Positions 21,044 to 22,515 of a DNA stretch of 40,010 nucleotides are shown piece after piece. Numbering within the stretch: position 1 is the first letter of the stretch; each line of letters begins with the position of its first letter. Source of the stretch: Lachnospiraceae bacterium (GTDB lineage: Bacteria; Bacillota; Clostridia; Lachnospirales; Lachnospiraceae); assembly GCA_018384375.1 (NCBI GenBank), contig JAHAYJ010000059.1, positions 1 to 40,010 on the forward strand. Reading direction: 5' to 3'. The notes beneath the pieces are model-generated. The model was not told where the DNA came from. It did no database searches and worked only from the letters and a program-made list of their open reading frames with translations. Both the position numbers and the translations under genes were made by a program.

Positions 21044-21277
21044 ATGCTGTTCTCTGAATTAAAATGTAAAGATGTGATCAACCTACGTGACTGCAAGAAG
21101 CTTGGTCGGATCTCCGACCTTGAATTTGACCTTTGCAGCGGGCAAATCTGCAAGGTCATCATTCCCTGTGGAAATAAATTTCTCAATGTTCTGTGCTCTG
21201 AACCCGACATTGTCATCCCCTATAAAGACATCAAGCAAATCGGACCGGATATCATTATCGTCGATATACGCTGCTAG
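21044..21277 (+). CDS. ylmC: YlmC/YmxH-family PRC-barrel sporulation protein
   Basis: 77 residues, the only convincing plus-strand gene. The sequence SELKCKDVINLRDCKKLGRISDLEFDL, then CKVIIPCG and IVIPYKDIKQIGPDIIIVDI, is the PRC-barrel fold of the YlmC/YmxH family found in all endospore formers. A disruptive phenotype is modest in Bacillus and the role is not settled. CAGGAACC lies 8 nt upstream of ATG. It is divergent from sigG (about 120 bp shared leader) and convergent with sigE, with a giant inverted repeat starting 8 bp after its stop. Confidence 0.93.
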   Translation: MLFSELKCKDVINLRDCKKLGRISDLEFDLCSGQICKVIIPCGNKFLNVLCSEPDIVIPYKDIKQIGPDIIIVDIRC

Positions 21278-21284
21278 CATCATC

Positions 21285-21765
21285 CCCCACCGCTATCAGA
21301 GATGTAAGCTGTATGTTTGCAAGAAAATGTCTGTGGATCTGCTTTACGGCAATAACCCGTTTGGGGGATTTTTTGAACCCAGCTGTCACAAATACCAATT
21401 AGATGCCCTCGCGAGAAACTCAAAGCGCATTGCAGCACATCTGCCGTAAGGTCTTAAAGGCTTTTTAGGAAAATCAATCAGCTTATTTCAGAAAATTTAT
21501 CCCCCGATTTCTTTGTTCGAAGCGTAGCAAGTTTGAAATCGGGGGATTAATCATATCTCTGAAATAAGCTGATTAGATTTTCCATAAAGGCTTTATCGAG
21601 CTTACGGCAGATGTGCTGCAATGGCTTCTCAAACACTCGCTCGGGCATCCGTATTATTGTGACAGCTGTTTCTAAAAAATCCAGCCCAAATGGTTAAATG
21701 CCGCAAAGCAGATCCACAGACATTTCTTTAATAAATATTGCATTCATCTTCTGATAGCAGTGGGG
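21285..21765. repeat. Giant inverted repeat filling the ylmC-sigE gap
   Basis: Arms 21285-21511 and 21535-21765 (about 227 and 231 bp) are imperfect reverse complements around a 23-nt loop. Exactly complementary blocks include 21325-21345 with 21705-21725 (21 nt), 21428-21450 with 21601-21623 (23 nt), 21476-21492 with 21558-21574 (17 nt), and the inner stem 21499-21511 with 21535-21547. The outer ends CCCCACNGCTATCAGA match over 15 of 16. Between blocks the arms diverge and have small indels. The element begins 8 bp after the ylmC stop and ends 6 bp before the sigE stop. Either strand's transcript would fold into a hairpin of over 200 bp, so it could serve as a bidirectional terminator or act as dsRNA. 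Both arms carry short open frames (CLWICF..., LQHICRK...KAF) but none is intact in both, so coding is not supported. Confidence 0.9.
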
Positions 21766-21771
21766 AATATG

Positions 21772-22515
21772 TCAGCAGCTTTCTCGAAGGAGTTCCTTCT
21801 TCAACCGCTTCATGATTTTCTTTTCCAGGCGGGAAATATAGGATTGTGAAATTCCCAAAAGATCCGCGACCTCCTTTTGTGTCATTTCCTGTCCGTCCGG
21901 CGTTCCCAGTCCAAAGCGAAGGTGGATGATGGTTTTCTCTCTTTCTGTGAGCTTATCAATCGCCTTTAACAGGAGCTTTCTTTCCACTTCATTTTCAATG
22001 TCTCTGTATATCACGTCCTCGTCGGTTCCCAAAATATCTGAAAGGAGAAGTTCATTTCCGTCCCAATCCACATTTAAGGGTTCATCAATGGACACCTCCA
22101 GTTTTGTTTTATTGTTTCTTCTCAGATACATCAAAATTTCATTTTCTATACATCTTGATGCATAAGTTGCAAGCTTAATGTTCTTTTCCGGATTGAAGGT
22201 GTTAATAGATTTAATCAGCCCTATCGTTCCTATGGAAATGAGATCCTCCACTCCCACTCCCGTATTGTCAAACTTTTTGGCTATATAGACGACCAACCGC
22301 AGATTATGTTCAATCAGGATCGACTTTGCCTCATCCTCATATTCTGTCCCCAGATCACTGATGACAGCGTTTTCCTTTTCTATCTCAAGGGGTGGCGGGA
22401 GTACCTCCGATCCACCTATGTAATGAACATCTCCCTGTCTTGCCAATAAGAACCCGGGTTCTCTGCGATAAAGCTTAAACTGCAGTTTTCCCGGAATTGC
22501 TACCTTAAAAACCAT
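21772..22515 (-). CDS. sigE: Mother-cell sigma factor SigE (pro-form)
   Basis: 247 residues. Sigma-E directs early mother-cell genes. The N-terminus [20 protein letters not shown] is the membrane-associating pro-sequence removed by SpoIIGA, and the mature protein starts near the conserved [13 protein letters not shown] (about residue 30). Region 2 ([37 protein letters not shown]...[17 protein letters not shown]) and region 4 with [24 protein letters not shown] are intact. AGGAGGAAAAT precedes ATG. It follows spoIIGA by 32 bp, so they share the Spo0A-type promoter upstream of spoIIGA. Confidence 0.98.

Follow-up and report, generated by a model that had tools for sequence, protein, structure and literature searches.

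The attC sites of integrons are imperfect hairpins that are recombined as folded single strands, structure outweighing the letters of the stem; their ends are conserved, with R/L boxes at the base, their tip is variable, and an integrase is linked to them. MITEs such as ERIC and QMITE2 are described as intergenic repeats that are dispersed, non-coding and AT-tolerant and that, once transcribed, would form stable stem-loops, with direct repeats of 7-9 bp given for QMITE2 (PMC10969869). YPAL has internal inverted repeats, target duplications of 3-26 bp and targets near dyad symmetry; YPAL/RU-2 of Yersinia and the Rickettsia palindromic elements measure at most 168 bp and occur in few genera (PMC2229807). 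REP sequences are palindromic units of 20-40 bp with a GTAG/CGTC tag, some dimers of which lie inside longer palindromes (PMC3733652). SMR-A and the PATEs of Haloquadratum are mobile repeats that lack both a transposase and a known mobiliser, SMR-A being approximately 110 bp in length with conserved inverted ends, inserting inside palindromes and generating no target duplication (PMC3119063).

The window, the whole 40,010-nucleotide stretch of DNA that was analysed, carries between the genes ylmC and sigE an imperfect hairpin, termed a rod below, which belongs to a dispersed, multi-copy family of such hairpins. Like ERIC and QMITE2, rods are non-coding, dispersed, intergenic stem-loops; they differ from the elements described in the parts of that source drawn on here in reaching approximately 500 bp, in the absence of shared termini in the window's genus and in a tip common across phyla (PMC10969869). 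Rods resemble YPAL/RU-2 and the Rickettsia elements as apparently mobile palindromic repeats, but a conserved tip with covarying stems is not described in the sections of that report used here (PMC2229807). They share palindromy with REP (PMC3733652, in part); unlike REP/RAYT, six rod-bearing draft genomes (G025, G012, G015, G018, G032 and G005) gave no match to the Y1 transposase (PF01797). From SMR-A, as far as the portion of the account used here describes it, rods differ in size, ends and target duplication (PMC3119063). Rods are nearest to MITEs and to the palindromic repeats YPAL, RPE and SMR-A, without clearly passing the tests that define any one of these. The division of labour within rods, a fixed tip, free stems and private ends, is unusual. 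It is the opposite of the pattern of attC in that the tip is conserved and the ends are variable.

The preliminary description of a giant imperfect inverted repeat filling the ylmC-sigE gap was borne out: the arms, 21285 to ~21508 and ~21538 to 21765, are imperfect reverse complements around a central loop, the exact block lengths given for the hairpin having been looked at by eye only. Self-alignment and folding placed the whole rod at 21285-21765, on the + strand as judged by its tip motif. Six nested inverted-repeat blocks, 74-94% complementary, pair 21282-21511 with 21535-21768, and in a wider slice a weak self-alignment extended into both gene ends (21261-21787). The convergent neighbours are ylmC (YlmC/YmxH family, TIGR02888; 21044-21277, + strand) and sigE (TIGR02835; 21772-22515, - strand), with sigG and spoIIGA in the neighbourhood. 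As + strand RNA the repeat has a minimum free energy of -268.5 kcal/mol, compared with -117.0 ± 5.8 kcal/mol for shuffled sequences (z = -26.2; none of 100 shuffles as stable); the corresponding values were -276.9 kcal/mol (z = -26.7) for - strand RNA and -164.3 kcal/mol (z = -27.6) for the + strand folded as DNA. When self-complementarity was scored across the window in 132 tiles of 600 nt, the two tiles of the repeat yielded 196 and 64, the next best tile 38 and the median tile 12.

Comparison of copies placed the core common to most others in the genome at 21365-21681 (+ strand; query positions 81-397). Motif scans and tip alignment placed the conserved tip, TGTTCGAAGCGTAGCAAGTTT, at 21514-21534, with its GCGNAGC centre at 21522-21528; the apical stem on either side (left strand 21495-21511, right strand 21535-21551) differs in its letters among copies and retains pairing. 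The outer arms are locus-specific, the left (21285-21364) pairing with the right (21683-21765); in the sister species G025 the former is present on the sigE side and the latter is absent. Two conserved internal loops were recognised by eye, AAACTCAAAGC at 21416-21426, which is like the left half of the reverse-complemented tip, and GCTTCTCAAACA at 21624-21635, which is like the right half; all of these features are given on the + strand. An assembly artefact can be discounted because G025, assembled separately, has a rod of 89% identity at the same site. No support was found for the proposal that the arms are decayed copies of a repeat encoding a small protein: stem letters vary freely among copies, and mirrored short frames occur in the arms because any inverted repeat yields them. 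The coding test covered ORFs of 60 amino acids or more, and only one such ORF (21087-21449) extends into the rod, where the frame differs from that of ylmC, which it overlaps.

A foldback element, or a mobile or family-specific repeat, had also been proposed. This is upheld in substance by dispersed copies, by empty sites and, in a distant relative, by target duplications of 9 bp. One correction applies: since the copies are themselves palindromes, it is the entire hairpin, not a single arm, that forms the repeat unit. Searching the genome of origin (G000; 3.1 Mb in 125 contigs) with the 481-bp query yielded, apart from the query's own reverse strand, nine additional loci at E<1e-8 and numerous weaker matches; the exact tip motif occurs 19 times. 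Sixty relatives were searched, and matches at E 1.1e-7 or better were present in 11 of 35 congeners, with nothing below E 0.01 in the other 24 and no match at E<1e-3 in any of 24 genomes of other families. Fetched copies were palindromes, mostly of 200-500 bp and approximately 62-87% self-complementary where a palindrome was found, and in several genomes contigs terminate inside a copy, as multi-copy repeats do. At L009 (G012), L117 (G007) and L120 (G017), orthologous sites bear rods of different core subfamilies, suggesting a hot spot, replacement or conversion.

The tip, 21 nt of sequence TGTYCGAAGCGNAGCAAGTTT, is nearly invariant, while the stems differ among copies yet stay complementary. 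In an alignment of 55 sequences by 13 stem pairs, 84.6% of cells were paired, a score lowered because approximately eight cross-phylum rows misfit the register, compared with 57.8% after shuffling and at most 57.7% after sliding by 1-3 positions; two-sided changes in the same alignment numbered 201 against 74 when shuffled. At least seven of nine apical pairs were formed at 102 of 121 distinct tip sites, and all nine at 74, across 53 distinct stems. Random combinations of left and right stems reached seven of nine in 388 of 3000 trials, a good number of these within a single subfamily. At its centre the tip nearly always reads GCGNAGC, where N is A, T, G or C; d(GCGAAGC) is a very stable DNA mini-hairpin.

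In the distant relative G386 the tip lies within a palindrome of 198-201 bp with shared ends, both of which were present at 11 of the 30 loci examined. Of these 11 copies, eight have perfect 9-bp repeats on either side and two have repeats that match at 8/9 and 7/9; the last, 264 bp in length, has an 8-bp repeat. The cross-copy control reached 7/9 at most in 110 pairs. The remaining loci have no recognisable partner end, some through central deletion, and end truncations are common. At one G386 locus, L284, the tip is reversed relative to its own end sequence, another sign of inner inversion. Within the window's genus, comparison of G012 with G018 gave two filled and empty pairs. At L069 (flanks 97% and 89% identical) an entire 470-bp palindrome, outer arms included, is missing from the empty site, and the flanks overlap by 12 bp (CTGTGCTAAAG / CTGGTTAAAG against CTGCGTTAAAG), giving a direct repeat of approximately 10-11 bp with one indel, the only one seen in the genus. 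At L067 (flanks 87-88%) 433 bp in G012 stand against 5 bp in G018, with no clear direct repeat. On sequence comparison, whole rods insert as units at these two loci. There was no clean empty site for L051 in G025, because another gene occupies the locus, and repeats of 9 bp at the ends of 27 copies from the window's genus did not exceed the cross-locus control.

With a probability of roughly 0.6, we consider the ylmC-sigE region to be a mobile element of the non-autonomous kind, which is defined by its hairpin, depends for its movement on a factor acting in trans and is tolerated where genes converge. The identity of such an element would reside in a long DNA hairpin with a near-invariant tip, stems in which paired letters change together and, along its length, unpaired positions that are conserved. 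An enzyme supplied in trans may recognise the folded tip or rod and move the hairpin as a unit, with a staggered cut of the target; a stagger of 9 bp is seen in G386 only, the window's genus offering the single direct repeat at L069. The termini differ among the copies of the genus, which is unusual for a transposon and counts against a mobile element.

The copy in the window would have been acquired on the lineage of G000 and G025, in which the tail-to-tail gap may tolerate a rod. A rod is present at this site only in those two genomes; the gap is convergent, rod-free and 22-138 bp in length in 13 of 19 congeners for which the sigE locus was fetched, the other six being not comparable. The G025 rod is inverted, core identity being 0.87-1.00 when it is turned and 0.4-0.8 when compared directly, and one outer arm is missing. 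Five of seven orthologous rods of the two species are flipped (the window, L004, L006, L046 and L055) and two (L002 and L005) are not. A later inversion of the rod in one of the two species is envisaged, for which recombination between the two arms of the rod, or template switching from one to the other, is the probable route. The rod now probably lies at the 3' ends of both the ylmC and sigE transcripts. Among the sigE loci compared (L148-L167), sigG is opposite to sigE in six congeners (G015, G008, G013, G003, G005 and G011). In most of the genus ylmC lies, inverted, in the interval from sigE to sigG, whereas the loci of other families (L168-L171) have it after sigG, on the strand of that gene.

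The least improbable of the competing explanations, though still unlikely, is that rods are resident functional hairpins, acting in cis as bidirectional terminators or as 3'-end or dsRNA structures, selected in place and only occasionally copied. Placement in the window's genus fits: of the 45 copies scored, 17 have convergent genes on either side, 21 are tandem and 7 divergent (a further 14 were incomplete), whereas 4 of the window's 42 gaps are convergent. In this count the ylmC-sigE copy was wrongly scored as tandem, ylmC being shorter than the 90-amino-acid limit. In G386, however, only 4 of 29 copies are convergent. No simple promoter or terminator was found in the window's ylmC-sigE gap, whereas short hairpins occupy that of congeners, which also fits. 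In five pairs compared between sister species, identity declines from 98.0% over the innermost 60 nt to 85.7% at 120-150 nt, with flanks at approximately 78-97%. Such likeness exceeds that expected of dead copies and points to function in place, at the expense of a mobile element. Against residency, stem changes between sister species are mostly one-sided (51 versus 2 two-sided, and 24 versus 2; the outer arms of the first pair are confounded by the flip), and a terminator would not need a tip conserved across phyla. Taken with the high identity near the tip, these changes make the tip look constrained in place while the arms decay.

The outer arms of rods are private to each locus, yet at L069 they arrived with the insertion; pre-existing target hairpins as their source were rejected, the L069 arms being absent from the empty site. 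Where cores are near-identical (at least 0.85 near the tip, G017 and G007), likeness is gone approximately 190 nt from the tip, and the arms are still mutually paired. At L067 (~715-745 and 1165-1185) the left arm's outermost bases look like the 3' end of the neighbouring gene in inverted form, a gene end that the empty site (L363) has on one side only, and at L107 the end of an AraC-like gene is likewise mirrored. Flanking or target sequence may have been captured into the arms by template switching or by insertion of one rod into another, of which the tip-like half motifs at 21416-21426 and 21624-21635 could be a trace.

That rods are ordinary MITEs of a known insertion sequence family, in which the long palindrome is incidental, is improbable. 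The size of the G386 element, its shared ends and its 9-bp duplications fit, as do the common end truncations and central deletions. Shared terminal inverted repeats are present among the G386 copies; copies of the window's genus have differing ends, and variable termini with tip and pairing kept across phyla are the reverse of what a MITE defined by its terminal inverted repeats predicts. Neither the window copy nor the G386 loci have coding capacity for a transposase. Whole-genome searches covered two transposase families, Y1 and UPF0236/ISLre2, and found no parent element; UPF0236/ISLre2 matches were weak in G386 and absent from several carriers. Y1/RAYT and UPF0236/ISLre2 were not supported as mobilisers, since neither tracks the element. 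G334, a rod-free congener of G386, has 44 matches of UPF0236/ISLre2 type. No autonomous element with the same ends was seen at 30 G386 loci, and no transposase was noted in the ORF listing beside 21 of them.

A long structured RNA at many loci per genome is highly improbable despite the very stable fold and clear covariation, given the orientation flips between sister species, the absence of an Rfam covariance match to the rod (the best sub-threshold hits were to microRNA precursor models, because any long hairpin gives such hits) and the absence of G.U excess among isolated mismatches (G.T 165 and A.C 144 in 83 copies; 6 and 4 in apical stems), a weak test because near-neutral decay also gives equal G.T and A.C.

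The tip extends beyond the genus. Scanning genome contigs for exact TGTYCGAAGCGNAGCAAGTTT gave 62 stretches, with approximately one expected by chance (an estimate), and about 22 of the 62 lie outside the window's genus: in a Clostridia MAG (8 stretches), Desulfuromonadaceae (5), Desulfuromonas (1), Bacteroidales, Proteiniphilum, the complete chromosome of Flavobacterium sp. xlx-214, Clostridium celatum, Clostridium sp. (2), Cellulosilyticum ruminicola and one further Lachnospiraceae record. Most are flanked by complementary stems of unrelated sequence; at several, blastn found no long palindrome. A search of 391 genomes of the class with a wider tip pattern found it in 25, and the reversed control in none; carriers are scattered, the genus of G386 having the tip in only one of five genomes. 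Single rods had no blastn match in plasmid and phage collections. Exact tip variant A was absent from viral contigs and variant B occurred in nine stretches, four of which (L140, L141, L142 and L144) fold by eye as tip hairpins. Inspection by eye showed another hairpin, with a sequence resembling CTTGAT...TATCAAGACAAAAG, downstream of the tip hairpin in Flavobacterium and some viral contigs (L135, L140, L141 and L144). In G283 (L237-L245) the tip hairpin lies inside a longer repeated unit whose flanks are also common to the copies. A literature search, thin on subscription journals, found no paper on the tip motif or the rod family.

A broader proposal, which we regard as possible but doubtful, is that rods are a class of mobile DNA that spans phyla and is set apart by its fold, not by the sequence of its ends. 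Clostridia, Bacteroidota and Desulfuromonadales would each have an enzyme, whether shared or arrived at by convergence, that recognises a GNA-type tip, excises the hairpin at its base whatever the letters and inserts it with a staggered cut, and rods would grow by mutual insertion or by copying flanks into their arms.

If correct, rods would represent a mobile element recognised by the shape of a DNA hairpin, the tip of which has remained unchanged across phyla while the rest has changed, and structure-directed mobility would become testable outside integrons and IS200-type elements. Giant palindromes of the kind at which short-read assemblies break would also be accounted for. The hundreds of covarying hairpins would form a natural set for finding the mobilising enzyme.
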